DNA of 64,000 bases from an uncultured Oscillospiraceae bacterium (GTDB lineage: Bacteria; Bacillota; Clostridia; Oscillospirales; Ruminococcaceae): contig CASGAN010000002.1 of NCBI GenBank assembly GCA_949299455.1, forward strand, positions 119,692 through 183,691, written 5' to 3'. Below are positions 8,202 to 45,912 of the stretch, one piece after another. Under the pieces are notes generated by a model. It ran no database searches. It was not told the DNA's origin and saw nothing but the letters and a program-made list of their open reading frames with translations. Position 1 is the stretch's first letter. The number at the start of each line of letters is the position of its first letter. The position numbers were made by a program, and so were the translations under genes.

Positions 8202-8231
8202 GAAAGGTTGCATAAAATAGATGCAGCCACG

Positions 8232-8259
8232 AAAAACCTCGATTTTATCGAGGTTTTTT
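8232..8259 (+). terminator. terminator of the tRNA operon
   Basis: AAAAACCTCGA, TTTTA loop, TCGAGGTTTTTT, 31 nt after tRNA-Ala. Confidence 0.88.
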
Positions 8260-8364
8260 GCTATATATAGGCCCAAAAAACAATAGGGTTGACTCACAGA
8301 TGAAAAAGCCCTTTTTCGATGATTTTAGAGAGTTGAACTCTCGTACAACCGGATATAGAACCGC

Positions 8365-8437
8365 AAAGGCAGATAGATGAAAAATCTATCTGCCTTTTTT
8401 ACTGCCCGGAGTTTTGCAAAAGACTCCGGGCTTTTTT
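8365..8437 (+). terminator. two tandem terminator-like hairpins before the recombinase
   Basis: Hairpin 1 (8365-8400) has a 14-bp stem AAAGGCAGATAGAT with T-run. Hairpin 2 (8404-8437) pairs GCCCGGAGT with ACTCCGGGC, followed by TTTTTT. They insulate the recombinase from upstream transcription. Between 8260 and 8364 there is no gene; a palindrome GAGAGTT-G-AACTCTC lies at 8328-8342. Confidence 0.8.
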
Positions 8438-8463
8438 CATTTCACAAAAAGGAGAAAACCAAA

Positions 8464-10048
8464 ATGTATTTTAATCCCGCCGACACTCCTGCCGGAAGAT
8501 GCCACGAAAGTAAAACGGCAGCTCCGCACAGCAGCCTACTGCCGGGTATCCACGGATTCCGATGACCAGGAATTGAGTTTTGAGGCACAGGTAAACGCCT
8601 ATACCGACAAAATCATGAGCAATCCCGAATGGTCACTGGCTGGAATATTTGCTGACGAGGGCATCAGCGGCACGCAGGCATACAAGCGCAAGGATTTCAT
8701 GAAAATGATTCGGATGTGCCGTCAGGGAAAGATTGATCAGATCATCACCAAGTCGGTATCACGGTTTGCCCGCAACACGGTTGACTGCCTGACCTATATA
8801 CGCGAACTGAAAGCGCTGGGAATCCCTGTGATCTTCGAAAAGGAAGGTCTCAATACCATGCACATGACAAGTGAAATCTACATCAGCATGCATGGGATTT
8901 TTGCCCAGTCAGAGTCCGAATCTCTCAGCGGGAACGTCAAATGGGGCAAGCAAAAAAGTGCCGAAAAAGGCAATGTGGCGATCAGCTACAAGAATTTTCT
9001 CGGATACCGCCAGGGAGAGGACGGGAAACCGGAAATCGTGCCGGAAGAAGCGGATACAGTACAGTTCATCTATGAGCGGTATCTCGAAGGGGACAGTATC
9101 AGCCTGATCAAACAGAAGCTGGAAGAACAGCACATTCTGTCTCCGACCGGCAAGCAGACATGGAGCACCACAACGATCCAGTCCATCCTCCGGAATGAAA
9201 AGTATAAGGGGGATGCGCTGCTGTGCAAGACCTATGTGGCAGACTGCATCAGCAAGAAGAAATGCAAAAACACAGACCGGCCGCAATACTATGTACAGAA
9301 CAATCATCCGGCCATCATTCCGCGGGAAGTATTCGACCGCGTCCAGCAGGAAATGGCGAGGCGTTCCAGTCTCAACCGGAAAAAGCAGAAAGACGTAAAA
9401 ACCGAACTCGGAAAGTATTCCAGCAAATATGCCTTAACAGAACTGCTGGTCTGTGGAAAATGCGGCACCGCCTACCGCAGAGCCGTGTGGAGTAAAAATG
9501 GCAGGAAGAAAGCGGTGTGGCGCTGTATCAGCCGGATGGAGTACGGCAAGAAATACTGCCCTGACTCCCCAACCCTTGAAGAAACCGCCGTCCAGCGGGC
9601 TGTGGTCGATGCGATCCGGGAGGTCGTAAATGATGACGGATGTCAGGCTGCGCTCAAAAACCTGCAGCTTCACATACGAATGTTTTATGGTGCGGCTGAC
9701 GAGAACAGCATCGTAAATGACGAGATGAGGCTGGAACAGCTCAAAAGCATGGTCATGGAGATGGCAGGCAAAGATAACATCGCAGGTGAGGATTTCATCG
9801 CCCTGTCAAAAGAGATTGCTGAAGTCAAAATGGTTATTGCAGAAAAGAAAAAACGGCAAGTGGACGCAGGTGCGGATCAATCCAGAATGGACGAGGTGCT
9901 GGTAGCCCTCAATGCCCTGAAAAACCATCCGATAGATTTCGATGACACTGCCGCCAGACAACTGATCGACTGCATCAAAGTGCTTTCCAAGACCGAACTA
10001 CTGGTCATATTTAAAGGCGGAATTGAAAAAACAGTAGCGATGGAATGA
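8464..10048 (+). CDS. large serine recombinase (TnpX/TndX/Spo-integrase type), 5' end disturbed
   Basis: The continuous frame ending at 10048 encodes a resolvase catalytic domain with nucleophile Ser in 'YCRVSTDSDDQ' and the 'SVSRFARNTVDCL' segment. The recombinase DNA-binding domain, a zinc ribbon (CGKCG and later Cys residues) and a C-terminal coiled coil follow. Family members excise or integrate mobile DNA through short att sites. The only ATG with a good ribosome binding site (AAGGAG, ATG 8464) is one base out of frame with this reading frame, which begins in earnest at 'ILIPPTLLPED' (about 8468). In-frame alternatives are a TTG at 8414 inside a terminator hairpin. A 1-nt indel just after the start codon is the simplest reading, so activity is doubtful. 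No cargo genes are adjacent. Confidence 0.8.
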
Positions 10049-10199
10049 GGGATAGAAAATGATATATATACAAAGTTTTTTCATATGGCTATATACAAAA
10101 TCCCCTTTAATATGCTATAATAAAGACAAATCAATTGGGTTCGATCTTTGCGAGAGTTCAATCCTATATCGTGAGGGGTTCATTTTATGCTGCCCTTCC

Positions 10200-10240
10200 A
10201 AAAATCGACAAGTCCCGCCAGGGACTTGTCGATTTTTCTT
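10200..10240. terminator. bidirectional terminator after the recombinase
   Basis: A perfect 17-bp stem (10200-10216 with 10221-10237, AAAAATCGACAAGTCCC) around GCCA. Confidence 0.9.
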
Positions 10241-10316
10241 TTCCCGATTCACGAATTGATTTTTGAAAGCGAGGAGCAATGGGAAATCGTGAAGAAGTGC
10301 GACGTGCATAGATAAA

Positions 10317-10332
10317 ACCGGGCGTGCCCGGT
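10317..10332. repeat. palindrome copy 1 of a short dispersed repeat
   Basis: ACCGGGCGTGCCCGGT, preceded by CGTGCATAGATAAA. A second copy with compensating changes on both arms lies at 11165-11180 on the other side of the acetyltransferase gene. The rest of 10240-10520 has no gene; two TTATCATAAG words (about 10371 and 10463) are also seen. Confidence 0.6.
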
Positions 10333-12555: not shown

Positions 12556-12581
12556 GCTGAGCAATTTTTATTGATAATAAA

Positions 12582-12628
12582 CGACAAAGAAGCGATCAGG
12601 ATGAAAATTCTGGTCGCTTCTTTGTCGT
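12582..12628 (+). terminator. guaA terminator
   Basis: CGACAAAGAAGCGA(T)CAG pairs with CTGGTCGCTTCTTTGTCG around an A-rich loop. Confidence 0.85.
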
Positions 12629-13367
12629 AATCGATTATTTTACTGATCTAACAAGAAGTTGAAATATTATGCGCAACCGCTTCAAATTTGCGCTGGATGA
12701 CAGCAGGAAATCTCGGTAAGCTTTTTTGACACAGGCCCGTATTTGTTCCATCATTGTGGATTCTCTGTCCGATCAGATCGTCACTGTTTATATATAGAAA
12801 ACAGTTATAAAGCGATAAAATATATACTATGAATATTTAAAATACTACATTAAGATTTATATTATTTGCGTTGCATATCTTACACAGGGCAAACGTATTG
12901 AGCATATACTGCAATGTATGCCAGTCAAAAAGGACGAAAATCATTCACTTAGAAGCTTAGAATCAATACAATGATTTTATTAAAAATAGTAGAAATCGAA
13001 ACCGTTCTAAAACAAATAGCGTGAAGAGATACAGATTGCAGTTGACTACATGCATATTGATAAGTGTAGCGTTGCGTTTGCGTTTTTATGTATAGCAGCG
13101 GTATCTCGGATTCAAATCGGATTTTTGAAAATGAAATTTACGTTAAATGCATATAGTAAATCAGTTGATTTTTTTGATATGTTATGGTATAAATTTTTAT
13201 ATAAAGTATGTATTTACTACGTTTTTTAAAAAACGAAATGTAAAATTATTCCTATTATACAAGTTTGCTTAAATCACTCAATCATATTAGGGATCGGTTT
13301 GTTTTAGGTCATAACCATTGGATGGTTAAGGTACATCGTGGTGGACATGATAAAGGAGTGATTCACT
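12629..13367. other. 740-nt AT-rich intergenic region without a recognisable gene
   Basis: No convincing coding sequence. A 39-codon minus-strand open stretch (about 12640-12760) has no recognisable product and may be a decayed remnant. AT content is higher than in the flanks. A small hairpin (AACCAT-TGG-ATGGTT, about 13314-13328) lies upstream of the cyclase start. No riboswitch was recognised. Confidence 0.5.
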
Positions 13368-14918
13368 GTGAAAACACCGTGGAGAATAAAGCCGCTTCAG
13401 AAGGATTTTATTGAACAGGCTGTCGCGATCAATCAAAAGTTTTTGCGCATTGGTGCAATGGTTGTGGTCGTTGTTGGGCTTTTTCATATGATGCGCGCAT
13501 TCCTTTTTACAACTATGGAGCTCACAACACTGAACGACCAGATTTATTTTGGATTTTATCTGTTCAGTTTTGTTTGCGGCGTTATCTTTTTAATACTTGA
13601 ATATTGTGTAAAACTATCATTAAAGATGCGGTATCGTATGTATATGATCAGCAGCGTTCTGATTTTATACTGTCATATGACTTTCAACATATACAACCTG
13701 TACCATAGAGGAATATCAAGCTGTCTTGTTATTATTATAGCGATGGCGTTCTTTTGTGGTCTGACCATGCTGAAGCCCATTAGTACGCTTGTGAATCTAG
13801 GGTGCAGTTATCTGATTTTTCTGATGCATTTAATCGTTGTATCCTATTGGAGCCAAATCGTTGCCTTTTCGGTTGTTGCGTGTTTGTGTATGCTGATTTA
13901 TTTGAATCGCTATCGATATCTTTGTTTGGAAATTACGCAGATGAAAAGGCTCGACGGGATGCGGCAGGAACTGACAGATGTAAAGCGTGATTTTCGGTTG
14001 TCAACGGAGCAATATGCGCTGATTCAGGAAAAAGGAAAATATATTACATTTGAATGGGATATTCGTGAAGATTGGATTCGTTTTTCGAAAGAGTGGAATG
14101 AGGTGTTTGGAGAGCCAGAGGATATTCCGGATTTTTCAAAATATATCAATAGCTTGCGCGTGATTTCTGATTCATTGAAATCGGATTTGATTCAATGTCT
14201 TGAAAACGTCAAAAGCGGCATTAACTTTCAAAAGTATGAATTGTTATTGCCAACACAGAGCGGCAAAAGTGAATGGTTTGAACTGCGTGTCGTCACACAG
14301 GTGAACACACAGGGGGTGCCAGCGTTTGGAATCGGAATGCTTTCAAATATTACAGATCAAAAACAAAAAATCAGCCAATTGGAACAAGAAATCCATATGG
14401 ATTTGTTTGCTGGTGTTTTAAATAAAGCGGCAATTGAGTCCTATGGACAAAGAAAGATAAAAGAGCTTCCAAACGGAAAAATTTTGGCGATTCTTATTTT
14501 GGACATGGATGATTTTAAAGGAATCAATGACCGATTTGGTCATCCGGTGGGAGATTATGTTTTAAAAGAAGTGGCAAAAATTATGCGCCAGAAAGCGCCG
14601 GTGGGTGCAAGAGTCGGACGCATCGGCGGTGATGAGTTTATTGTTTTGTTCCTAACGGATTGCTTGGAAGAATTTTGTGTGTATGCGCGTAAGCTGATCG
14701 ATATGGTTTTGCACATCGAATGGAATGGCGCCTGTATTGGAGCAAGCTGCAGCATTGGGATTTCTGCAGCAGATTCATGCGAGTGGGATTATGCCAAATT
14801 GTATCAGACGGCAGACAGCGCGCTGTATCGGGCGAAGCGAAAAGGTAAGCATCAGATCTGTTGTCAGATAGAAAATTGCCGGCAGGATCGTGTGCAGCCA
14901 GAATGTATAACGGTTTAA
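13368..14918 (+). CDS. membrane-bound diguanylate cyclase (GGDEF)
   Basis: A 516-residue protein starting at GTG 13368 behind AAAGGAG. About six hydrophobic helices occupy residues 22-180, probably a membrane sensor module. A PAS-like segment follows (about 215-325, 'YITFEWDIREDWIRFSKEW'). The GGDEF domain (about 340-500) has an intact GGDEF (420-424) and 'DMDDFKGINDRFGH', so synthesis of cyclic di-GMP from GTP is expected. The RxxD inhibitory site normally found five residues before GGDEF is absent (PVGA there), so product inhibition is unlikely. An EAL phosphodiesterase follows on the same strand. Confidence 0.9.
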   Translation: MKTPWRIKPLQKDFIEQAVAINQKFLRIGAMVVVVVGLFHMMRAFLFTTMELTTLNDQIYFGFYLFSFVCGVIFLILEYCVKLSLKMRYRMYMISSVLILYCHMTFNIYNLYHRGISSCLVIIIAMAFFCGLTMLKPISTLVNLGCSYLIFLMHLIVVSYWSQIVAFSVVACLCMLIYLNRYRYLCLEITQMKRLDGMRQELTDVKRDFRLSTEQYALIQEKGKYITFEWDIREDWIRFSKEWNEVFGEPEDIPDFSKYINSLRVISDSLKSDLIQCLENVKSGINFQKYELLLPTQSGKSEWFELRVVTQVNTQGVPAFGIGMLSNITDQKQKISQLEQEIHMDLFAGVLNKAAIESYGQRKIKELPNGKILAILILDMDDFKGINDRFGHPVGDYVLKEVAKIMRQKAPVGARVGRIGGDEFIVLFLTDCLEEFCVYARKLIDMVLHIEWNGACIGASCSIGISAADSCEWDYAKLYQTADSALYRAKRKGKHQICCQIENCRQDRVQPECITV

Positions 14919-15281
14919 ATCCGGTCTTAAAAAATGGAAATGAGTAAAGTCGCAGAAAAACGGTGAAGTAACGCGATTATGATCGCTAAGCTGCAAAAAA
15001 TGGGTGTGTTGATTGCACGGCAGTTTTTTCAGCTTTTTATTTAAGATGATTTTATAAGTGAAATCGATTGTGAGTCAATCAGTATTTCGAAAAGCTCCAT
15101 TAGTCGTACAGGGAAACATCATGGCCTCATGGCGGAATTTTTTTACTGTTAGAATGACAAACAGAAGACAAAACTTTGCGTATCAGCAATATTTGTGGTA
15201 ATATAAAAATAGAGAATTTGTTTGAAGAACCGACACAAATGCATCAGCATGCGGCCGGTATGCGAAGTGCAGGAGGCAGTC
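14919..15281. other. intergenic region between cyclase and phosphodiesterase genes
   Basis: No gene seen. A weak hairpin-plus-T-run candidate lies near 14991-15040 (CTGC...GCAG-TTTTTT). A plausible promoter for the EAL gene is TTTGCG, 18 nt, TAATAT ending near 15204. The two c-di-GMP genes are therefore probably transcribed separately. Confidence 0.45.
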
Positions 15282-17555
15282 ATGGATGAAAAGAAGTTGA
15301 AAAAGCAGCTTGTTCGGATGAGTGCTGCTGTAATTACCGTGAGCATGATACTGTGTGTTGCGGTATTTGGTGTTTTAACATATGTTTTAGATGCTGCACA
15401 TGACGCGGATCATGTGCAGATGAAAGCAGAGGCATTGGAATATGAAAGCCGGATCTTAAAGCAGATTGACAAGAATTTTCAAATTTTAAATACGATGGCG
15501 AAATCATATGAGATCAGCGGGATTATAAAAGATTTTGATGAGTTGGAGAAATCCATTTCTGAAGCCAATCGCGTCAATTCGTTTGTCAGCGTGTTTTACC
15601 TTCCGATAGAGGGAACGGGTATTTTTGACCTATACGGTCAGGACACTTACCGTAACTTTACACTTGAGGATTGCAGCCCACAGACGAAAGAAACGATTCT
15701 TCGGGCACAGCAGGGTGAACAAGCGGTATCGAATATGTTTGAGAGTATGGCATATGACGGAAGAATCTTTATTTACAGTGTACCGGTGTATGAAAACGGA
15801 GAAATTATCGGTGTGCTTTCCGCAGGTGATACGCTGGAGATTTTTGAAGATATCGTAAACGGCAATTTTGTCATGAATGGTGAGGGATATGTTCATCTGC
15901 TGAATGAAAATGGGGATTTTTTGGTTCGTTCGGAAAATACGATCGTAAAAGAAAATATAAATACGATTTTTGACGGATCGTATTTGACAGGCGAAACAAA
16001 ACGAAAAACATTAGATGCGCTTTCGAATCAAGAGTCGATATATGGAGATTTTGAATATCGCGGCGAGCAATGTCACTTTTATATCGAGCCGATGGGGTTA
16101 AACGGCTGGAACCTGTTTTGTGTCGATAAATTGTGGGGATCGACATTGTCTTTCGGACGGATTATTTTCATAGTGGCCGGTGTTTTCTTTTCCGTTTTAA
16201 TCATTTTGCTGGCGTTTATGTTCTATGCTTACTATAGATTTCGGAAAAATGCAGCTTTGCTGCTTCATTTTGCGTATTTTGATACGGTGACAGGTGCCAG
16301 AAATACACTGAAATTTGATCATGACCTTCAGGAGTTTACCAAAAAGCATAAGGAATACAGTATTGTTGCGTTGAACATCCACAATTTCAAAGGGATCAAT
16401 GATCTGTTTGGAAAAAATCAGGGTGACAGGGTGCTGTGCTATCTTAAAAAAGTGATTGAAGATCATTTAAATGATGAAGAATTGTTCTGCCGTGATTCGG
16501 GCGATCTATTTTATTTATTGCTGACAGAGACTGACCGGACGGTTATCAAAGAACGCTTGGAAGCAATCATCGGGCAGGTCAAACAGGAGTCTTCTCATGC
16601 GGAATACAGCTATGAAATCTCACTGTACGCTGGGGTGGCAGTGGAAAAAGATCGTGAAAAGGCACTGGTGGCTTTGCAAGGTATCCGTCAAAAGCATCAT
16701 ATCAATATTACATTTTATGATGAAGAGCTGCATGAAAAGCTTCGGAAAAGAGGAGAAATTGAATCTTATATGCAGCTGGCACTTGAAAATCGTGAGTTTA
16801 AGCTGTTTTTACAGCCCAAAAATGATTTGAAAAACGATGAAATCATTGGCGCAGAAGCGCTTGTGCGCTGGCAGAAGCCGGACGGATCATATCGGTATCC
16901 CAATGAATTTATTCCGCTGTTTGAGGAGAACGGTTTTTGTATTAAGCTGGATATGTATATGTTGGAGCGGGTGTGTGAACAAATCCGCGCATGGATTGAC
17001 AGCGGGATCGAGCCAATTCCGATTTCTGTGAATCAATCAAAGATGTTGTTTGCAAACGGAAACTATCCGGAAGTGCTGACACAGCTCGTGAATCGCTATC
17101 AGATTCCGCCTTCGCTGATTACACTTGAAATTCTCGAAAGAACTGCGGTGGATGATTTTGAGCAAATCAGCAGTCAGATTGATGTTTTGCGCAGTAAGGG
17201 ATTTAAAGTGTCCATGGATGATTTCGGGAGCGGATATTCTTCGCTGAATATGCTATATCAGCTGAATGTTGATGAATTAAAACTTGATCGCGGTTTTTTG
17301 CGACAAACGTCGCACGATGATAATGATCGCCGTCTGATCATATTGGAACAAATTATTTCGTTTGCGAAAAAGCTTGGTGTTTCGACGGTTGCAGAGGGAA
17401 TTGAGACACAGCTGGATAAAGATACAATGGTGAAGCTGGCGTGTGATTACGGACAAGGATATTTTTATGAGCGTCCAATCAGTGCAGAGGAATTCAGCGA
17501 ACGGTATATGGCCATTCGTGTGAAGAAAAATCGCGGATCATCTGATAAAAAGTAG
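15282..17555 (+). CDS. cyclic-di-GMP phosphodiesterase with degenerate GGDEF and EAL domains
   Basis: A 757-residue protein starting at ATG 15282 (AGGAGGCAGTC before it). TM1 (about 12-34), a Cache-like extracytoplasmic sensor (about 35-285) and TM2 (about 298-322) come first. A GGDEF fold whose signature is DSGDLF (405-410), so without cyclase activity but perhaps GTP-binding, follows. The EAL domain (about 500-745) has E525-A-L, 'SVNQSKMLF', 'MDDFGSGYSS' and 'STVAEGIET', the metal- and substrate-binding residues of active phosphodiesterases. It likely opposes the cyclase next door in response to an external ligand. Confidence 0.92.
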   Translation: MDEKKLKKQLVRMSAAVITVSMILCVAVFGVLTYVLDAAHDADHVQMKAEALEYESRILKQIDKNFQILNTMAKSYEISGIIKDFDELEKSISEANRVNSFVSVFYLPIEGTGIFDLYGQDTYRNFTLEDCSPQTKETILRAQQGEQAVSNMFESMAYDGRIFIYSVPVYENGEIIGVLSAGDTLEIFEDIVNGNFVMNGEGYVHLLNENGDFLVRSENTIVKENINTIFDGSYLTGETKRKTLDALSNQESIYGDFEYRGEQCHFYIEPMGLNGWNLFCVDKLWGSTLSFGRIIFIVAGVFFSVLIILLAFMFYAYYRFRKNAALLLHFAYFDTVTGARNTLKFDHDLQEFTKKHKEYSIVALNIHNFKGINDLFGKNQGDRVLCYLKKVIEDHLNDEELFCRDSGDLFYLLLTETDRTVIKERLEAIIGQVKQESSHAEYSYEISLYAGVAVEKDREKALVALQGIRQKHHINITFYDEELHEKLRKRGEIESYMQLALENREFKLFLQPKNDLKNDEIIGAEALVRWQKPDGSYRYPNEFIPLFEENGFCIKLDMYMLERVCEQIRAWIDSGIEPIPISVNQSKMLFANGNYPEVLTQLVNRYQIPPSLITLEILERTAVDDFEQISSQIDVLRSKGFKVSMDDFGSGYSSLNMLYQLNVDELKLDRGFLRQTSHDDNDRRLIILEQIISFAKKLGVSTVAEGIETQLDKDTMVKLACDYGQGYFYERPISAEEFSERYMAIRVKKNRGSSDKK

Positions 17556-25154: not shown

Positions 25155-25191
25155 AAAAAAGATTCAACCACTTGCGGTTTGAATCTTTTTT
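25155..25191 (+). terminator. rplM-rpsI terminator
   Basis: AAAAAAGATTCAA...TTTGAATCTTTTTT with a CACTTGCG-type loop. Confidence 0.85.
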
Positions 25192-25222
25192 GTTTATTGG
25201 TGTGAAAATAAAGGAGATCAAT

Positions 25223-26074
25223 ATGGAATCAAAGCATCCGACAAACAAAGCGGCGTTTTGGCTGCTTCGAATTGTGCAGGGCGCGCTCATCGGCGTCGGT
25301 GCAGTATTGCCGGGCATTTCGGGCGGCATTCTGTGTGTCGTGTTTGGTATTTACAAGCCGGTGATGGAGCTTTTGTCGAATCCGATCCGCCGGTTCCGCA
25401 CGCATGTGCCGCCGCTGCTGCCTGTGCTCATTGGCGTGGCAGTTGGATTTTTGGGTATTGCAAAACTGCTTGCCTTTTTCCTTGAAACATATCCTGCAGC
25501 GTCGGTTTGCGCGTTTGCAGGCATGATTATCGGTATGCTTCCCGATTTGTTCAAAGAAGCCGGTCAAAAAGGCCGCTCGAAAGGGTCGTGGATTTCGCTT
25601 TGCATTGCAGGCGCGGCATTGCTTGCATTGCTGCTTAGTCTTCGTGCATTCGAGGTGGAAATTGCACCGAATGTCGGCTGGTATTTGTTCTGCGGTTTTT
25701 GCCTGGCGCTGAGCATCATTGTACCGGGTATGAGCTTTTCGACACTGCTGATGCCGATGGGACTGTATACACCGTTTGTCGCAGCACTCGGCGGCTTTAA
25801 CTTCGGTGTCATCGCTGTTGCAGGTGTTGGTGCAGTCGTTACGGTTGCACTCCTCTCGAAAGCAGTGAACCACCTGTTTGAACGGTACTATTCGTTTGCA
25901 TTCCATGCGATCATCGGTATTGTGATTGCATCCACACTGATGATTCTGCCGTATCAGAGCTTTGTTTCTTCGCCGGCGGCATGCATTGTGAACATTGTCT
26001 GCCTTGTCTGCGGTGTGTTGTTTGCATGGGCGCTCGGCCGGTTCAACAGCCGCTTTTCCAAAGAGGACGCATAA
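25223..26074 (+). CDS. DUF368 membrane protein, PopT-type polyprenyl-phosphate translocase
   Basis: A 283-residue polytopic protein; ATG 25223 follows AAAGGAG. The N-terminal 'GALIGVGAVLPGISGGILCV' and the mid-protein repeat 'ALSIIVPGMSFSTLLMPMG' are the paired PG(I/M)S loops that define DUF368; about eight to nine helices. DUF368 proteins (PopT) have been shown to recycle undecaprenyl phosphate across the membrane for envelope polymers. Followed 17 nt later by an HExxH protein in what looks like one transcript, and then by the glycosylation island, whose enzymes would depend on the same lipid carrier. Confidence 0.9.
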   Translation: MESKHPTNKAAFWLLRIVQGALIGVGAVLPGISGGILCVVFGIYKPVMELLSNPIRRFRTHVPPLLPVLIGVAVGFLGIAKLLAFFLETYPAASVCAFAGMIIGMLPDLFKEAGQKGRSKGSWISLCIAGAALLALLLSLRAFEVEIAPNVGWYLFCGFCLALSIIVPGMSFSTLLMPMGLYTPFVAALGGFNFGVIAVAGVGAVVTVALLSKAVNHLFERYYSFAFHAIIGIVIASTLMILPYQSFVSSPAACIVNIVCLVCGVLFAWALGRFNSRFSKEDA

Positions 26075-26091: not shown

Positions 26092-26859
26092 ATGAAACTC
26101 ACATTCAAAACGCCTGGCGCCGCATACAGTATCGAGAGCATGGCGCAGTTTCTTGCGGAGCCTGGGCAGGCAAACTGGGCAGAAATGTTTTTTGTCTTTT
26201 ATCCGCAGCTTGACCGAAAAAAGCTGCTTTCCGGAACGAAAGCGCAACGGCAGCGTCATCTGACTGAGGTGGTAACGGCGGAATACGCGTCACAGGAATC
26301 GGAAATGATGCAAAAACAGGCGTTCTATCAGGCGCATTGGAATGCGCACGAAGCGGAGATTCAAACTGCGTTTTCGGAAATTTTTTCGCTTGACTTGACC
26401 GGACAGTTTGACGATATGACGGCGAATATCACACTCAATCCGATTTGTCCGCGGTATCTTTCGGCGCATTCGTTTGACGTGTTTTCCAAAAACAGTCCGT
26501 CCGGTGCGCTTGGCATGGCATTGCATGAGATCACGCATTTTCTCTGGTTTGATGTCTGGGCAGAGGTGTTCGGCGAGAAATCCCCCGAAGAGTATGAAAC
26601 GCCGCATCTTCCGTGGATTTTCAGCGAGATGGCGGTTGATCCGATTTTAAAAGGGGACAAGCGGCTGTATGCACTCGACCCGTATTCACAAAATGAGGGC
26701 AGCGCGTATGAATGCTTTTATACGATGCAGATTGCGGGAGTACCGATTTTGCAGACGCTCGGCGAATGGTATCAAAATATGCCGATCCGCGAATTTATGA
26801 AAACGGGATTTTCCTTTTGCCAGGCGCATGAAGCGGAAATTCGCGCACAGATGATATAA
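26092..26859 (+). CDS. HExxH putative zinc peptidase, function unknown
   Basis: A 255-residue soluble protein starting at ATG 26092 behind GGAGGGACG. 'LGMALHEITHFLWFDVW' holds the HEITH zinc motif, and a later 'WIFSEMAVDPIL' offers a possible third Glu ligand, suggesting a gluzincin-like fold. No signal peptide. I do not recognise the family; substrate unknown. Its last eight codons and stop lie within the left 36-bp repeat of the adjacent island. Its natural terminator was apparently split by that event, only the left arm (AAAAAAGACCTCGT) remaining here. Confidence 0.75.
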   Translation: MKLTFKTPGAAYSIESMAQFLAEPGQANWAEMFFVFYPQLDRKKLLSGTKAQRQRHLTEVVTAEYASQESEMMQKQAFYQAHWNAHEAEIQTAFSEIFSLDLTGQFDDMTANITLNPICPRYLSAHSFDVFSKNSPSGALGMALHEITHFLWFDVWAEVFGEKSPEEYETPHLPWIFSEMAVDPILKGDKRLYALDPYSQNEGSAYECFYTMQIAGVPILQTLGEWYQNMPIREFMKTGFSFCQAHEAEIRAQMI

Positions 26860-26871
26860 AAAAGACCTCGT
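26836..26871 (+). repeat. left 36-bp direct repeat of the glycosylation island
   Basis: It begins GAAATTCGCGCACAGATG and ends GACCTCGT. 35 of 36 bases equal 31150-31185 (only the base after TTCGC differs). It covers the 3' end of the HExxH gene and the left arm of a terminator. Confidence 0.9.
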
Positions 26872-27250
26872 TGAAAAGTCTAACATGCTTAAAACATAAA
26901 CAACTTGACAGGACGTTACCAGAACAGGGATCAGACTTTTTGGGTGATGCTTGTTTCACGTAAAAAGCAGTAGATAATCTTACGGGATATATGTGTCATA
27001 TTAGTTTCTATCACTTTTAAGATCAAGTATATATGAAGTAAGTCGTTATATCTTGAAGATTTAGAAAAAACAGCTTTCTAGTATAGCGTTTTAATCGTTG
27101 ACATTAGTGCGTGAAACTGGGACCTTCATTGCTGAATCGTTTATATTTATTGTTCGTGTTTTTCGTTTGATAAACTAACGATCAACAGCTTGTTTAGTTG
27201 AAGTGGGTTATTTATTATGATACAATTAAAATATATTGAGGAGTGAAAAA
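26872..27250. other. AT-rich left end of the island, no gene
   Basis: No coding sequence was recognised. Base composition drops sharply at 26872. The promoter of the island operon lies at its end. No integrase, inverted terminal repeats or transposase remnant seen. Confidence 0.5.
27198..27226 (+). promoter_or_regulatory. promoter of the glycosylation operon
   Basis: TTGAAG (27198-27203), 17 nt, TACAAT (27221-27226), then a GAGGAG ribosome binding site. Confidence 0.75.
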
Positions 27251-27676
27251 ATGGGGAAAATTTGTACAATTTTGAAATCTCAGATTTTGTCTCACAAAGC
27301 TTTTCTTTTATATGGTATCATCAGCGTTTTTGTTACACTTATTGATGTCTTAACGTGTCGTATATGCGAAATATGGATTTCTTCTGTTACTGCAAATACC
27401 GTTGGTGTTATTACAGGATTTGTCATACAGTACTTTCTTACTGCACGACATGTTTATAACAAAAATAATATAAAATCTTTTATTGTATTTTTATGGACTT
27501 TCTTTGTCGGACTTATATTCGCTAATTCGATCGTATATGTTTTCCGTACCTTTGTGTTCAGCGGGTCTGACAGCAGTCTGGCATTTTTAGTGAGTAAGGG
27601 GTTTTCCATTGTTTTACCATTTTTCCTGATGTATTTTCTCAGAAAAAAATTTATGCCCGTTGCAAATAACAATTAA
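27251..27676 (+). CDS. GtrA-like membrane protein (putative lipid-linked sugar flippase)
   Basis: A 141-residue protein starting at ATG 27251 (GAGGAG 7 nt upstream). Four hydrophobic helices (about 15-37, 45-65, 78-98, 108-130) with 'GVITGFVIQYFLTARHVY', as in GtrA family proteins. These are thought to flip undecaprenyl-phosphate-linked sugars in three-component glycosylation systems. First gene of a tightly packed AT-rich operon with a GT2 and a polytopic glycosyltransferase, the same set of roles as gtrA-gtrB-gtr(type). Confidence 0.82.
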   Translation: MGKICTILKSQILSHKAFLLYGIISVFVTLIDVLTCRICEIWISSVTANTVGVITGFVIQYFLTARHVYNKNNIKSFIVFLWTFFVGLIFANSIVYVFRTFVFSGSDSSLAFLVSKGFSIVLPFFLMYFLRKKFMPVANNN

Positions 27677-27689
27677 GGAGAGAAAATGA

Positions 27690-28469
27690 ATGAAAAAGAT
27701 TTTTGCAATTCTGCCTTGTTACAATGAAGAACTGAACATAGGCGCTTTAATCGGTGAATGGAATCAGCAGAAAGATGCTCTTTACGAAGAAGGATATGAT
27801 CTTAAAGTCGTAGGAATTGATGATTGCAGTCGCGATCATACAAAAGATGTCATATCACAAAAGGCAGATACATATGAAAATGTTACACTTTTGCCTCATG
27901 AAACAAATAAAGGTCTTTGTGGTGGACTGAATTCTGCAATTTCTTATTTCCTTAAAAACGGCCAAAAGGGTGATTTGATGGTTCTTATGGATGGAGACAA
28001 CACTCATAATCCTGTCTATGTCCATGATATGCTTGAAAAATTACTTGCAGAGTCAAAAGACTGTGTGATTGCCTCAAGATATTGTTCTGCATCAAATATT
28101 GTAGGTGTTGCTGCGCACCGCGAATTCATGAGCGATATGGCTAAACATTATTACAGCATGGTATTAAAAGTACCGAACGTCAAAGACTATACTTGTGGTT
28201 ACCGCATGTATACCTATAATATTATTGAAAAACTTGTCAGCGAATTTGGGGAAGATCCGATCATTGAGAAAAGTTTTGCCTGCATGATGGAACTGCTGTA
28301 TAAATTATATATTGTCGGTGCACAATTTGGTGAAGTTGGTTTTGAACTGAGATATGACAATAAAAAAGGCGAAAGTAAAATGCATGTCATTACCACAATG
28401 AAAAAAAGTCTTACAACCGCCCTCAAACTCAAACACATCAATAAAAAAAGGAATCACGCAAAATGCTGA
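27690..28469 (+). CDS. GT2 family (DPM1/GtrB-like) glycosyltransferase
   Basis: A 259-residue GT-A enzyme with 'AILPCYNEELNIGALI' at the N-terminus and DxD-type 'LMVLMDGDNTHNP' near residues 97-109. 'IASRYCSASNIVGVA' is typical of polyprenyl-phosphate hexosyl transferases. Unlike GtrB it lacks C-terminal membrane helices, so it would act as a peripheral enzyme, probably moving a sugar from UDP/GDP to undecaprenyl phosphate. AAGGAG precedes the ATG at 27690. It overlaps the next gene by 7 nt. Confidence 0.88.
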   Translation: MKKIFAILPCYNEELNIGALIGEWNQQKDALYEEGYDLKVVGIDDCSRDHTKDVISQKADTYENVTLLPHETNKGLCGGLNSAISYFLKNGQKGDLMVLMDGDNTHNPVYVHDMLEKLLAESKDCVIASRYCSASNIVGVAAHREFMSDMAKHYYSMVLKVPNVKDYTCGYRMYTYNIIEKLVSEFGEDPIIEKSFACMMELLYKLYIVGAQFGEVGFELRYDNKKGESKMHVITTMKKSLTTALKLKHINKKRNHAKC

Positions 28470-30007
28470 ATAAATTAAAACGCCATTCTATTCCTATTAT
28501 CTTTTTACTTGGTGTCGCCTGTGTGTTTTCTTTTTCTACCTTTTTCTGTTTTTATTCAAAGGAAACATTCGGTCACGATGCTGGAATATTTGCTTATATT
28601 GGATATGCAATAACACAGGGAAAACCGTTATATACGGGTGCATGGGACAATAAGGGACCATTACTTTATATCATTGATGCATTGGGAATTCTTATCAATT
28701 ATCGATATGGTATTTTTATTCTTGAAATTACTGCTCTTTTTGCTACATTGCTGTCGATGTATAAAACAGCTTTATTCTTTGTTCCGCGTTATGTTGCTGC
28801 CATCTGTGCTGTACTTGCTTTTATGCCGCTTACTACGGCGCTGCAAGGCGGAAATCTCTCAGAAGAATGGGCATTGCCGTTTACTACTATTGCTTTCTAT
28901 TTTATTGTTAAATTTTTCTGCAATCATTATGCTTTAAAAAAATATGAAATGATGATCGTCGGTGCTTGTGTCGCAGCAATCATTCTTTTAAGACTCAATA
29001 TTATCATGTTTATTGCAGTTGCTGTTCTCGGTGTTATTATTGTTCTTGTCAAAACAAAGCAAATAAAAACACTGTTGAATGTCACATTGTTTGCGTTGTT
29101 AGGCTTTTTTATTTTTCTTGCACCATTTGTCATCTATCTTATTCTAACCAATTCTCTTTCTGCTTGTCTTGAAACAGCCTACTTCGGAACACTTGGGTCG
29201 TTTTCTCAAATTACAAAAATGCAGCTGCTCATCAACATCTCTGCAATGATATTCAGATTTATCGAAAGCGGCGGATTTTTTATCATTATTTTGTTTGTAG
29301 CAATTTTCCCCTTTTATGTTTATAAAACAAAAGGGCAGGACAGTGTTTTGAAAACTTTACTGTTCATTTGTTTTTTTGGTCTTTTTGCGACCTTGATCGG
29401 CAATTCTGTTTCTGGTGCAGACCATATGCATTATTTCATGTGTTTTATCCCGGTAATGCTCCTTCCGACTGTATGGTTTTCAAAAGCAATCTATTCATTT
29501 TTCTGTACCAACCGTGTAAAGACATTCAGTGCAACTGCTGCAGTTGCAGCCTTTGCATTTATTATTTCGATGAATTCAATACCGGTTCTCAGAAGCAATA
29601 TTATCAACAATCTTCGCGATGGTACAGATTCTTATTTAAGTGCTCAATGTATGAAAGTCAGCGACTACGTTAAAGCACATTCATCACCTGATGATACTGT
29701 CCAATTGATCGGTGATGCAACCGCTGTCACCTCATATTATAGGGCGAAACGAATTGCAGCATCAAATTATTTTTACTATGCGAATGGACGTTTTTCAGAA
29801 GAGGCTAGAAAAACATTTGCAAACGAAATATTTAAAGATATCAAAGAAAATCGTCCAGCAATTGTTATGTTTACGAATAAAGATAAGTTTCAAGATTTCA
29901 CACAATGTCTTGATTATCCCGATGATTTTACAAAGTATCTTGAAGAGCATTATACGATTGATGAAAATGATTTTTCGTATGTCACATACTTGCGGATTGG
30001 AGGTTAA
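28463..30007 (+). CDS. polytopic GT39/83-like glycosyltransferase
   Basis: A 514-residue membrane protein with about ten to eleven helices. The first external loop has 'GHDAGIFAYIGYAITQGKP' and 'AWDNKGPLLYIIDALG'. The acidic residues and the WDxKGP pattern are typical of GT-C enzymes (PMT/ArnT/Gtr type) that take sugars from lipid carriers outside the membrane. A soluble C-terminal segment (about 395-514) follows. It overlaps the GT2 gene and is 6 nt from the epimerase. Probable role: attaching the sugar to a surface polymer. Acceptor unknown. Confidence 0.82.
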   Translation: MLNKLKRHSIPIIFLLGVACVFSFSTFFCFYSKETFGHDAGIFAYIGYAITQGKPLYTGAWDNKGPLLYIIDALGILINYRYGIFILEITALFATLLSMYKTALFFVPRYVAAICAVLAFMPLTTALQGGNLSEEWALPFTTIAFYFIVKFFCNHYALKKYEMMIVGACVAAIILLRLNIIMFIAVAVLGVIIVLVKTKQIKTLLNVTLFALLGFFIFLAPFVIYLILTNSLSACLETAYFGTLGSFSQITKMQLLINISAMIFRFIESGGFFIIILFVAIFPFYVYKTKGQDSVLKTLLFICFFGLFATLIGNSVSGADHMHYFMCFIPVMLLPTVWFSKAIYSFFCTNRVKTFSATAAVAAFAFIISMNSIPVLRSNIINNLRDGTDSYLSAQCMKVSDYVKAHSSPDDTVQLIGDATAVTSYYRAKRIAASNYFYYANGRFSEEARKTFANEIFKDIKENRPAIVMFTNKDKFQDFTQCLDYPDDFTKYLEEHYTIDENDFSYVTYLRIGG

Positions 30008-30013
30008 TATCCG

Positions 30014-31108
30014 ATGAAAAAAATTATGCTTGTGTTCGGAACACGCCCGGAAGCCATCAAAATGTGTCCGCTTGTCAATGAGCTGAAGTCACGTGAAAAT
30101 ATTAAAACAATTGTATGTGTTACCGGTCAGCATCGCCAAATGCTTGATCAGGTTCTAAAAGCCTTTTCTGTTGTCCCGGATTATGACTTGTCTATTATGA
30201 AGGACCGGCAAACCCTTTTTGACATTACCTCCGGAATACTCAATCGAATTAAATCCGTTTTAGAGGAAGCAGCTCCCGATATTGTATTGGTTCATGGAGA
30301 TACTTCTACCACATTCGCAACAGCTCTTGCTTGCTTTTATATGCAAATTCCGGTAGGACATGTTGAAGCCGGTCTCCGTACATATGATATTTATTCTCCC
30401 TATCCGGAGGAATTTAACCGGCAAGCTGTAGGTATTATCGCAAAATATCATTTTGCTCCCACTAAACTTGCACACGATAATCTTGTGCGTGAAGGAAAAT
30501 CAGAAGAAAATATTTATATTACCGGCAACACTGCTATTGATGCACTTAAAACCACCGTTATGGAGAACTATTCTTCTGATGCGCTTGAGTGGGCAAACGG
30601 AAGTCGATTGATTCTTATAACTGCGCATAGACGAGAAAATCTCGGTGAACCGATGCATAACATGTTTAGAGCAATCAGACGTATCATTGAAGAGCATCCG
30701 GATGTTAAGGCGATTTATCCCATTCATATGAATCCTGTTGTAAGGAAAGCTGCTGATGAAGAACTTGGCGGATGCGACAGAATTCATATCATTCCGCCAC
30801 TCGATGTTCTTGATTTTCATAATTACATGGCAAGAAGCTTTATGATTCTGACTGACAGCGGTGGTATACAGGAAGAAGCTCCGGCGCTGGGCAAGCCGGT
30901 TCTCGTAATGCGTGACACAACAGAACGTCCGGAAGGAATTGAGGCTGGAACGTTGAAACTGGTTGGAACAGACGAACAAGTCATTTATGATAATTTTAAA
31001 ACGCTTCTTGAAAATAAAGAAGTTTATGATGCAATGGCACATGCAAGCAATCCATACGGAGATGGTTTCGCTTGTAAGCGAATTGCGGATATTCTTGTTG
31101 CTGAATGA
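30014..31108 (+). CDS. wecB: UDP-N-acetylglucosamine 2-epimerase (non-hydrolysing)
   Basis: A 364-residue enzyme (also called mnaA) starting MKKIMLVFGTRPEAIKMCPL. Family signatures: 'CVTGQHRQMLDQVL', 'VLVHGDTSTTFA', 'VGHVEAGLRTYDIYSPYPEE', 'ITAHRRENLGEP' and 'LTDSGGIQEEAPALGKPVL'. It interconverts UDP-GlcNAc and UDP-ManNAc. Last gene of the island operon, implying that a ManNAc-type sugar is made or used by the cassette. This is inference, since a second epimerase may exist elsewhere. Confidence 0.95.
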   Translation: MKKIMLVFGTRPEAIKMCPLVNELKSRENIKTIVCVTGQHRQMLDQVLKAFSVVPDYDLSIMKDRQTLFDITSGILNRIKSVLEEAAPDIVLVHGDTSTTFATALACFYMQIPVGHVEAGLRTYDIYSPYPEEFNRQAVGIIAKYHFAPTKLAHDNLVREGKSEENIYITGNTAIDALKTTVMENYSSDALEWANGSRLILITAHRRENLGEPMHNMFRAIRRIIEEHPDVKAIYPIHMNPVVRKAADEELGGCDRIHIIPPLDVLDFHNYMARSFMILTDSGGIQEEAPALGKPVLVMRDTTERPEGIEAGTLKLVGTDEQVIYDNFKTLLENKEVYDAMAHASNPYGDGFACKRIADILVAE

Positions 31109-31149
31109 AGTGAAGTATATAAACCGTAAAAAAAATTATGATATTCACA

Positions 31150-31185
31150 GAAATTCGCACACAGATGATATAAAAAAGACCTCGT
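31150..31185 (+). repeat. right 36-bp direct repeat of the glycosylation island
   Basis: Matches 26836-26871 at 35 of 36 positions, including a translatable copy of the last codons of the HExxH gene although no gene precedes it here. It continues into the full terminator. Confidence 0.9.
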
Positions 31186-31205
31186 CAGCTGACGAGGTCT
31201 TTTTT
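31172..31205. terminator. perfectly palindromic bidirectional terminator
   Basis: AAAAAAGACCTCGTCA and its exact complement around GC, with T-run. It serves the island operon (plus) and spoVA (minus). It is probably the original terminator of the HExxH gene. Confidence 0.92.
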
Positions 31206-31573
31206 TATGATTTATCATGCGAATGAAAGAGAAGTGCTACCAAAACAGCAAGCAGCATCGCCGCCGTAATACCGCCGCTTGATGCACACAGCCCGCCGGT
31301 CAGTGCACCAATGAGCCCTTCGTTGTCGACGGCTTCTCTCACACCGTTTGCAAGTGAATAGCCAAACCCGGTCAGCGGAACGGTCGCGCCTGCACCGGCA
31401 AATTTGACAAGCGGCTCATATAGTCCGATGCCGCCTAAAATCACACCGGATACGACAAATGACACAAGAATCCGCGCCGGTGTGAGCTTTGTGTAATCGA
31501 TCAAAATTTGTCCGATGGCACACAGCAGCCCGCCGACAACAAACGCTTTGATACAGTCTGTTAGCAGTTCCAT
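31205..31573 (-). CDS. spoVAE: stage V sporulation protein AE
   Basis: A 122-residue membrane protein starting at ATG 31573 (AAAGGAGG upstream). Helices and the glycine-rich 'FAGAGATVPLTGFGYSLANGV' match SpoVAE(b), which with SpoVAC forms the dipicolinic acid/Ca channel of spores. 13-nt overlap with spoVAD. A paralogous 'YAGAGTLVPITGFANAV' stretch occurs in SpoVAC. Confidence 0.93.
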   Translation of the reverse strand: MELLTDCIKAFVVGGLLCAIGQILIDYTKLTPARILVSFVVSGVILGGIGLYEPLVKFAGAGATVPLTGFGYSLANGVREAVDNEGLIGALTGGLCASSGGITAAMLLAVLVALLFHSHDKS

Positions 31574-32592
31574 GAAATATCCTCCTTTGAAGCAGTCAGC
31601 AAAACGGCATGCGAAATGCCGGGAATCGATTCGCCCTGCTGAATGCTTGTCGTTGACATGAGCGCGCCTGTTGCCGCAAACAGTACGCGGTGAAGCCGGC
31701 GGCTTTTTAGCCCGCTTAAAATATACGAGCACAGCACGGACGCACTGCATCCGCAGCCGGATCCGCCTGCGTGAACATCCTGACTTTCACGATTGAAGAT
31801 CATCTTGCCGCAGTCGTTGTGGACCGGTTCAATCTGAAATTGTTCCATTCGCAAAAGCTCGCACAGCAGCGATGAGCCGACAAACCCGAGATCCCCCGTT
31901 AAAATCAAATCATAATCATTCGGTGCGGTTTTTGTTGCAGACAAAAACCGCTTGATTGTGTCGGCGGCGGCAGGCGCCATGGCAGCACCCATGTTGTTGA
32001 CGTCGGTAATCCCGAGATCCCGGATGCGTCCGGCTGTGACTGCCGCTACATAAGGACCGTCACCTTCTGCACAAACGAGCGCGGCGCCTGCACCGGTCAC
32101 CGTCCATTGTGCGGTTGGCGTACGTACACCGCCGTATTCCAGCGGAAAGCGGAATTGACGTTCCGCCGAGCAGAAGTGGGAGGATGTGACGGCGAGTGCA
32201 CGCGAAACAGCGCCTGAGGCCGTCATCAATGAGGCGAGTACGAGTGATTCAGCCATCGTGGAGCATGCGCCGTACAGTCCGAACAGCGGAATGCCCAAAT
32301 CACGCAGTCCGTACGTCGAGCCGATGCACTGATTTAAAAGATCGCCCGCAAACAACAGCGAAACATCCTCCGGCGCACAATTTGCCTTTTTGAGCGTACG
32401 GGTGACTGCCTCGGTTTGCAGCCGGCTTTCCGCCTGTTCCCAGGTGTTTTGGCCTAACTTTGTATCGGTGAAAATATGGTCAAAATAACTGCTAAGCGGA
32501 CCTTCGCCCTCTTTTTTTCCCACAACTGCCGAAAACGCATTGATCGATGGCGGCGAATCAAAAATAAATACGCCGCGTTCTAATTGCTTCAT
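31561..32592 (-). CDS. spoVAD: stage V sporulation protein AD
   Basis: A 343-residue thiolase-fold protein. 'LFAGDLLNQCIGSTYGLRDL' and 'FGLYGACSTMAESLVLASL' match SpoVAD, which binds dipicolinic acid during uptake into the forespore. The enzymatic thiolase role is lost in this family. Middle gene of spoVACDE. Confidence 0.95.
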   Translation of the reverse strand: MKQLERGVFIFDSPPSINAFSAVVGKKEGEGPLSSYFDHIFTDTKLGQNTWEQAESRLQTEAVTRTLKKANCAPEDVSLLFAGDLLNQCIGSTYGLRDLGIPLFGLYGACSTMAESLVLASLMTASGAVSRALAVTSSHFCSAERQFRFPLEYGGVRTPTAQWTVTGAGAALVCAEGDGPYVAAVTAGRIRDLGITDVNNMGAAMAPAAADTIKRFLSATKTAPNDYDLILTGDLGFVGSSLLCELLRMEQFQIEPVHNDCGKMIFNRESQDVHAGGSGCGCSASVLCSYILSGLKSRRLHRVLFAATGALMSTTSIQQGESIPGISHAVLLTASKEDISWNC

Positions 32593-45444: not shown

Positions 45445-45468
45445 CATATTGAAGAAAGAAAATGGGAG

Positions 45469-45840
45469 TTAAAGATCCTCCTGCGGATCGTAGGCATACC
45501 GAAAATTGATACCAGGAGATGTAACGGAAAGATAGATAAAATCATGATCTGTTTGATTGGTAACGCCATGAATGTCTCCTTCTGCAAATCGAACAACATC
45601 TCCTTCTGAAAAAACTTTTGTTTTCTCGTTTTCGAGCAGCAAAATGCCTGTTCCTGAAAGAGCGACCCATATTTGTTCGGAAGTATCATGACTGTGCCGG
45701 CCGTTGGTTTTGCCCGGATGAACATACACCTTCGTGATCGTTACGCGCTTTGAGGATGAATTTTCGTTCCACAGTAATTGATGGGAATCCTGAAAATCTG
45801 ATTTTAAAACAACAATCGACTCTTTGTTGATGTATTCCAT
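45469..45840 (-). CDS. small cupin-domain protein
   Basis: A 123-residue single cupin. Motif 1 is 'VHPGKTNGRHSHDTSEQIWV' (His-His-Glu metal ligands) and motif 2 'DIHGVTNQTDHDFIY'. The second of two close ATGs (45840) is preferred, since AGGAGG lies 7 nt before it but only 1 nt before the first. Similar small cupins are isomerases, dioxygenases or sugar-binding proteins; function unassigned. No clear promoter between it and the tRNA-Lys terminator. Confidence 0.85.
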   Translation of the reverse strand: MEYINKESIVVLKSDFQDSHQLLWNENSSSKRVTITKVYVHPGKTNGRHSHDTSEQIWVALSGTGILLLENEKTKVFSEGDVVRFAEGDIHGVTNQTDHDFIYLSVTSPGINFRYAYDPQEDL

Positions 45841-45874
45841 AGTCATGCCTCCTGAATGTATTTTTATAATAATT

Positions 45875-45911
45875 AAAAATCCCGAACACAGTCCTGCGTT
45901 CGGGATTTTTT
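45875..45911. terminator. tRNA-Lys terminator
   Basis: AAAAATCCCGAAC, loop ACAGTCCTGC, GTTCGGGATTTTTT; 2 nt from the tRNA 3' end on the minus strand. Confidence 0.88.
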
Positions 45912-45912
45912 C

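Follow-up and report, generated by a model that had tools for sequence, protein, structure and literature searches.

How a block of genes comes to stand between another gene and that gene's own terminator is the question raised by a locus in a 64-kb stretch of the genome of an uncultured Oscillospiraceae bacterium (contig CASGAN010000002.1; the whole stretch of 64,000 nucleotides is referred to here as the window). Compared with two congeners, the genome has an AT-rich operon of four genes lodged between a gene for a putative HExxH metallopeptidase and its terminator. A first-pass annotation, made from the sequence alone, had proposed that this operon is a glycosylation island bounded by 36-bp direct repeats, which copy the 3′ end of the gene and half of its terminator, and that it had entered by site-specific integration. 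The comparisons reported here bear out a real insertion. The site itself comprises the following features:

26092..26859, plus strand: target gene, encoding a putative HExxH metallopeptidase of 255 aa (HExxH seen by eye in the translation)
26836..26871, plus strand: left repeat copy, consisting of the final 8 codons of the HExxH gene including the stop and the left terminator arm; no terminator fold (sequence comparison, RNA folding)
31150..31185, plus strand: right repeat copy, one mismatch (sequence comparison)
31172..31205, no strand: complete palindromic terminator, today between the island operon (plus) and spoVAE (minus) (RNA folding)
31205..31606, minus strand: spoVAE, convergent gene bordering the relatives' empty site on the right (TIGR02839, 145.7 bits, cut-off 131.1)

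The two repeat copies (26836-26871 and 31150-31185) agree at 35/36 positions, with a single G/A mismatch at position 10 of 36, and the likeness between them breaks off sharply at each edge. A repeat of this kind exceeds chance expectation. The right copy runs on into a full hairpin (AAAAAAGACCTCGTCAGCTGACGAGGTCTTTTTT, 31172-31205), and RNA folding gave -22.1 kcal/mol (z -7.0) at the right junction compared with -1.6 kcal/mol (z +0.4) at the left, confirming that only the right copy carries the complete terminator. The segment between the repeats spans 4.28 kb and is AT-rich as first described, with a GC content of 0.363 versus 0.480 for the window and a third-position GC of 0.295-0.323 in the four island genes versus 0.562 in the HExxH gene. 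All four frames are unbroken and closely spaced in operon fashion, with a 13-bp gap, a 7-bp overlap and a 6-bp gap between successive genes. An 80-nt query across the left junction returned seven matches in the same genome, two strong (both repeat places) and five at E 1 or 1.87; a third strong match was not obtained with this query. No inverted repeat links the two ends of the island, and within the 36-mer no core inverted repeat scored above 0, in a test without power whose shuffle control was uninformative.

Among eight genomes of the genus the HExxH gene occurs in three, the window's own (G000) and those of two relatives, Merdimmobilis hominis An559 (G001) and the Clostridia metagenome-assembled genome (MAG) E0_DM bin205 (G005), whose orthologues are 91% and 89% identical. 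In both congeners the gene is directly followed by the complete terminator and then by convergent spoVAE. The alignment segments meet at 26871/31150 for M. hominis and at 26872/31150 for the MAG, each with a 36-bp overlap in the relative's contig. The island flanks are 92-93% identical to M. hominis, whose terminator has one base different near the loop; the terminator stem of the MAG has diverged. An empty site had been named at first pass as the check on the proposal, and its absence from every relative as a refutation; it was found in 2/2 congeners that have the gene. Moreover, the normal gene-terminator unit predicted to result from recombination between the repeats is the very arrangement seen in these relatives.

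Since the site is empty in two relatives, it is reasonable to interpret the 36 bp as duplicated target and not as coincidence. The two empty relatives and the foreign composition favour, by parsimony and not as proof, a gain of the island in the lineage of the window. At the mismatched base, G is present in the left copy and in both relatives and A in the right copy, a pattern that would suit a right copy brought in by the element; this copy differs from the left one by a single base and from the M. hominis site by two. Across the family the gene was found in 8/396 genomes, of which only the own genome and the two congeners are close; the other five are at 25-41% identity, and the sequence 3′ of them looks different by eye and is uninformative on the site. 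In the five genus genomes that lack the gene, the DNA after spoVAE was different in the three that were read (L084-L086) and the motif was unmatched in L087 and L088.

The island carries four genes behind a non-coding end:

26872..27250, plus strand: AT-rich non-coding left island end, GC 0.317 (composition)
27251..27676, plus strand: small GtrA-like membrane protein of 141 aa, a presumed flippase for lipid-linked sugar (PF04138, E 1.1e-4, 22.8 bits, under the 26.1-bit cut-off)
27690..28469, plus strand: GtrB-like family 2 glycosyltransferase, 259 aa (PF00535, phrog_841, 5mlz)
28463..30007, plus strand: 514-aa membrane protein, presumed GT-C type transferase (remote homologues)
30014..31108, plus strand: WecB, non-hydrolysing UDP-GlcNAc 2-epimerase, 364 aa (TIGR00236, 517.5 bits, cut-off 210.15)

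At family level, the second gene encodes a putative polyprenyl-phosphate GT-A glycosyltransferase: its product matched PF00535 (E 8.2e-23, 81.6 bits, cut-off 23.3) and phrog_841, 'GtrB-like O-antigen conversion' (E 1.2e-22), and its solved relative is the dolichol monophosphate mannose synthase 5mlz (E 3.7e-9). The 514-aa membrane protein has no family match of its own in Pfam, NCBIfam or PHROG; PMT_2 (PF13231) was matched by one of four remote homologues (E 2e-5), the protein's own sequence remaining unmatched. A profile search of solved structures returned nothing under E 0.09 for this protein, and its single-sequence structure model (mean pLDDT 44.5) was too poor for a structure search. Overall the cargo resembles a surface-glycosylation cassette of gtrA, gtrB and a membrane transferase, with wecB added. 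In such a cassette, WecB would make UDP-ManNAc, which we infer to be supplied to the glycosylation module, the GtrB-like enzyme would load sugar onto polyprenyl phosphate, the GtrA-like protein would flip the lipid-linked sugar, and the 514-aa membrane protein would transfer the sugar to a surface glycan. The cargo would then be a serotype-conversion-like module that borrows the intact terminator of its target.

Two known systems invite comparison. The gtr clusters of temperate phages are described in PMC3851460 as having the order gtrA-gtrB-third gene beside int-attP. The island resembles these gtrA-gtrB-gtr(type) serotype-conversion clusters in gene order and in its GtrB-family enzyme. Unlike them, it has an extra wecB, its third gene has no PHROG match, and no integrase or phage gene was found among the island or tested flanking genes. 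Multi-component transmembrane glycosylation systems of the CsbB/GtcA/YfhO type are described for Gram-positives in PMC8035078; like the systems outlined there, the island combines a GT2 enzyme, a GtrA-like protein and a large membrane protein, although its GtrA match lies under the curated cut-off and its membrane protein is only a putative GT-C enzyme.

Relatives of the 514-aa protein were all remote. It matched 19/247 family genomes including its own, the others at 22-33% identity; at E 1e-20 it was found in 1/394 order genomes (own only) and in 7/391 class genomes including its own, the others 22-30% identical. No close relative was present in these three sets, which overlap, and the protein had no match in viral contigs or in M. 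hominis An559 or the MAG. At the DNA level the island matched 15/148 family genomes including its own, the longer matches falling in wecB. WecB relatives, 65-83% identical, are found in four other genomes, and a wecB relative is present elsewhere in the MAG genome. The GtrA-like and GT2 proteins, looked for only inside 12 loci, had no match there. The left island end has no significant relative elsewhere in the eight genus genomes (best other match E 0.02).

We give about an even chance to the reading that the operon is an integrase-type island without its own recombinase, akin to the cis-mobilizable elements (CIMEs) that are remnants of integrative and conjugative elements (ICEs) or integrative and mobilizable elements (IMEs). 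The insertion would have been an integrase-type site-specific recombination, with the 36 bp as attL/attR core, and the recombinase would have acted in trans or been lost with the remainder of a larger element. Such an island would no longer be self-mobile, yet could be lost by recombination between its repeats. We favour this reading because the site is empty, with a 36-bp overlap, in both congeners that have the gene, because the repeat lies at a gene 3′ end and its length is within the 8-60 bp range, and because the base composition is foreign, the gene order is that of phage gtr clusters and the second gene matches the GtrB family. The range is taken from PMC5704250, where the repeats of tyrosine-recombinase elements are given as 8-60 bp and often at 3′ ends.

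In PMC7563491, CIMEs are said to keep att sites without recombination or transfer genes, to have a classical size of 1.2-13 kb with cargo, and to be very prevalent in streptococci. The island resembles these CIMEs in its short, att-like direct repeats at a gene 3′ end around cargo, in its empty site in relatives, in its intact target gene, in a size within 1.2-13 kb and in holding no recombinase, conjugation or other transfer genes (four cargo genes only, and short frames in the left end). Unlike CIMEs, it is solitary, forming no tandem with an ICE or IME, its repeat extends into half a terminator, and no related functional element with the 36-bp core was found. As to an ICE or IME ancestor with the same core, the own genome yielded no additional strong match, viral contigs contained no instance of a 29-nt degenerate pattern derived from the repeat, and the stretches scanned around the genome's five tyrosine integrases held no matching site.

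Several candidates for the inserting agent were considered and rejected. None of the four island genes matched a recombinase in Pfam, NCBIfam or PHROG, in agreement with the first-pass annotation, and none had a transposase match. A DDE transposon or insertion sequence was set aside, as there are no terminal inverted repeats, the duplication is 36 bp and no transposase was matched. A tyrosine integrase acting in trans from among the genome's five was set aside as well, no matching site being found in the stretches scanned around them; an enzyme lost since could still have acted. The first-pass annotation had also pointed to the serine recombinase at 8.4-10 kb of the window, a large protein with CcrB- and XisF-like matches, each under cut-off. 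No link between this enzyme and the repeat was found, nor a third strong repeat match in the genome, and other serine recombinases were not searched. The large serine recombinase lies in a 2.1-kb segment (window 8202-10331) beside two tRNA genes that is absent in M. hominis.

A number of observations weigh against an integrase-type origin. A scan of 97,290 bases flanking the five tyrosine integrases, and in addition of one further 20-kb stretch of C10, gave 22/36 as the best ungapped match to the repeat, and the 29-nt pattern occurred in 0 viral contigs. The left non-coding end holds only short frames by eye, no remnant search having been run, and no relative with other cargo at the 3′ site of the HExxH gene was found. 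The mismatch between the repeat copies would be equally explained by a later mutation in what is now non-coding DNA. No end motif beyond chance was shared by five segments of this kind (3/90 comparisons reached 9 bp, versus 13/500 among shuffles). Finally, a second AT-rich insert is present at an unrelated 5′ end, flanked by a 99-bp repeat that is longer than the att cores quoted above, and this case weakens the notion of one specific site. Of the original proposal, the insertion of an island is upheld by the empty sites; that it was site-specific is less secure, given the lack of a recombinase inside and of a matching site around the integrases, and given the 99-bp case.

This second insert (G000:C1:81204-82810, L142) lies between exact 99-bp copies at C1:81204 and C1:82712, which duplicate the 5′ end of ksgA (named by eye) and upstream DNA. 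It comprises 1,409 bp with a GC content of 0.37 and two small genes without a Pfam match and without a recombinase. The site is empty in both relatives, with 99-bp overlaps (G001 150160-150258; G005 973-1071), and measured against the identical pair the single copy shows 2 differences in G001 and 4 in G005, so the duplication is either young or homogenised since. The 99-bp repeat forms no hairpin on either strand (z +0.7 and +0.3). A distant copy of the cargo of this insert is found downstream of pfl in the MAG genome.

The ksgA event bears directly on a serious rival, which we nevertheless think rather unlikely: insertion without a recombinase, by illegitimate recombination with target duplication. 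Here the incoming DNA would have been joined at a stalled or broken terminator by template switching or homology-facilitated illegitimate recombination, and copying would have restarted 36 bp behind its departure point, so that the duplication length would be arbitrary and no att site would be involved. A second event in the same genome, empty in both relatives, speaks for this rival, although the 99-bp repeat is itself without a hairpin and 36 bp at a gene 3′ end is ordinary for integrases. According to PMC2884548, 10-18% of variable segments in four data sets have flanking repeats, the majority of these repeats being shorter than 30 bp. Like the small variable segments described there, the island is a presence/absence segment without mobile-element genes; unlike most of those repeats, its own measures 36 bp.

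Four M. hominis contigs, amounting to 564,146 bases, were compared with the retrieved portion of the own genome, dropping matches that were shorter than 150 bp, below 80% identity or nested. Of 29 neighbouring collinear pairs, 12 had an extra segment in the own genome and five in M. hominis. Five of the 12 own-only segments showed no overlap and seven had overlaps of 2, 5, 7, 15, 36, 85 and 99 bp, a spread and not one fixed length, as expected under illegitimate insertion; several of the 12 may instead reflect sequence lost from M. hominis, the 85-bp overlap falls within a related-gene array and two C19 rows overlap each other, all of which lessens their value for that rival. Overlaps of at least 12 bp were seen in 4/12 own-only segments (85, 15, 99 and 36 bp) and in 1/5 M. 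hominis-only segments (14 bp). GC content is 0.39 or less in three of the 12; two of these AT-rich segments carry the 36- and 99-bp repeats, the third none.

Direct repeats 0.4-20 kb apart were also scanned for in 1,464,861 of the 2,222,014 bases of the own genome, where five isolated pairs passed the filter, including the 36-bp one; the 99-bp ksgA pair came to light in the same scan. Six clusters of like-spaced pairs were set aside, five in two related-gene arrays and one a diverged pair, C2:90919/93990. At this last place (G000:C2:90919-94160, L061), two diverged like-spaced repeat pairs (73 and 60 bp) stand around about 3 kb with two genes that by eye resemble those for a DUF2961 protein and a serine hydrolase.

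In the two relatives (621,323 bases of G001 and G005), 12 isolated pairs passed and seven clusters were set aside. Seven of the 12 pairs enclose DNA with GC 0.39 or less; three of these are in one repetitive stretch, and the repeats of the other four measure 33, 64, 35 and 157 bp. All four contain a strong hairpin (z -7.1, -4.5, -6.6 and -8.1, the last for the terminator part of the 157-bp repeat), which also speaks for insertion at terminators without a recombinase. Judged from sequence, these four are candidate insertions only, without a demonstrated empty site. After guaA in M. hominis (C45:16371-19471, L210), an exact 33-bp terminator repeat flanks 3.0 kb (GC 0.38) with two genes resembling, by eye, polysaccharide O-acetylation genes; the own genome has a different sequence there, at a contig end and transposase-bearing by eye. 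A 1.0-kb AT-rich segment between 35-37-bp terminator-like copies is common to both species (G000:C4:5661-6736 and G001 C2:36854-37926), with a gene that is lipoprotein-like by eye and has no Pfam match. The C4 copy of this repeat in the own genome has a hairpin of z -7.9, and an empty site was not seen, the MAG aligning on the right side only. In the MAG (C66:3288-5600, L206), a 157-bp repeat with 11 mismatches covers the 3′ end of pfl together with its terminator, each copy being followed by relatives of the ksgA-island cargo; a tandem duplication describes the order of these pieces better than a simple insertion does.

These segments suggest, as a tentative idea that we would not expect to hold, that the genus repeatedly gains small AT-rich cassettes without a recombinase, duplicating a variable stretch of target (tens to about 150 bp), mostly at terminators. 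The route might be, for example, replication template switching at a terminator hairpin, and it is likewise doubtful that the 36-bp island is one product of such a route and not a decayed integrase island. A limited literature search found no published account of cassettes at terminators, and we make no claim that the pattern is unpublished. If the 99-bp and congener cases share a mechanism, they would offer a way to ask how bacteria gain small gene blocks without a recombinase.

It is improbable, in our estimate, that the operon and both repeats arrived together by ordinary homologous recombination, the donor being a strain outside the sample, from this or a sister species, in which the insertion was already present. 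No result conflicts with such an import, and the 92-93% identity of the flanks to M. hominis is silent on the donor; however, it merely shifts the origin elsewhere, and the right copy is nearer to the left copy than to the M. hominis site (one base versus two). Least probable of all is an ancestral island precisely lost in both M. hominis and the MAG, since, even if deletion between the 36-bp repeats would give exactly the empty site observed, it requires two parallel losses and sits poorly with the foreign composition, with a 514-aa gene unmatched in either relative and with a left end without a significant match in the other seven genus genomes, although the MAG does have a wecB relative elsewhere.

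Upstream of the target gene lies one further gene of interest:

25172..26074, plus strand: polyprenyl-phosphate transporter of PopT/DUF368-like type, next to the target gene on its upstream side (NCBIfam NF052563, E 1.2e-25, 90.6 bits, far under the cut-off of 400)

The HExxH target protein itself matched 0 families in Pfam, NCBIfam and PHROG; its gene stands directly behind the PopT/DUF368-like gene in all three species. Thus, an island that presumably uses polyprenyl phosphate adjoins a presumed polyprenyl-phosphate recycler, possibly by coincidence. A surface-glycosylation module would here have been acquired as a single block that relies on the terminator of the adjacent gene and lies a short way 3′ of a gene connected with the recycling of polyprenyl phosphate. 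Elsewhere in the window, M. hominis has about 74 kb of different DNA in place of 12556-15850 and, next to a tRNA gene, about 12.5 kb in place of 45463-45912.

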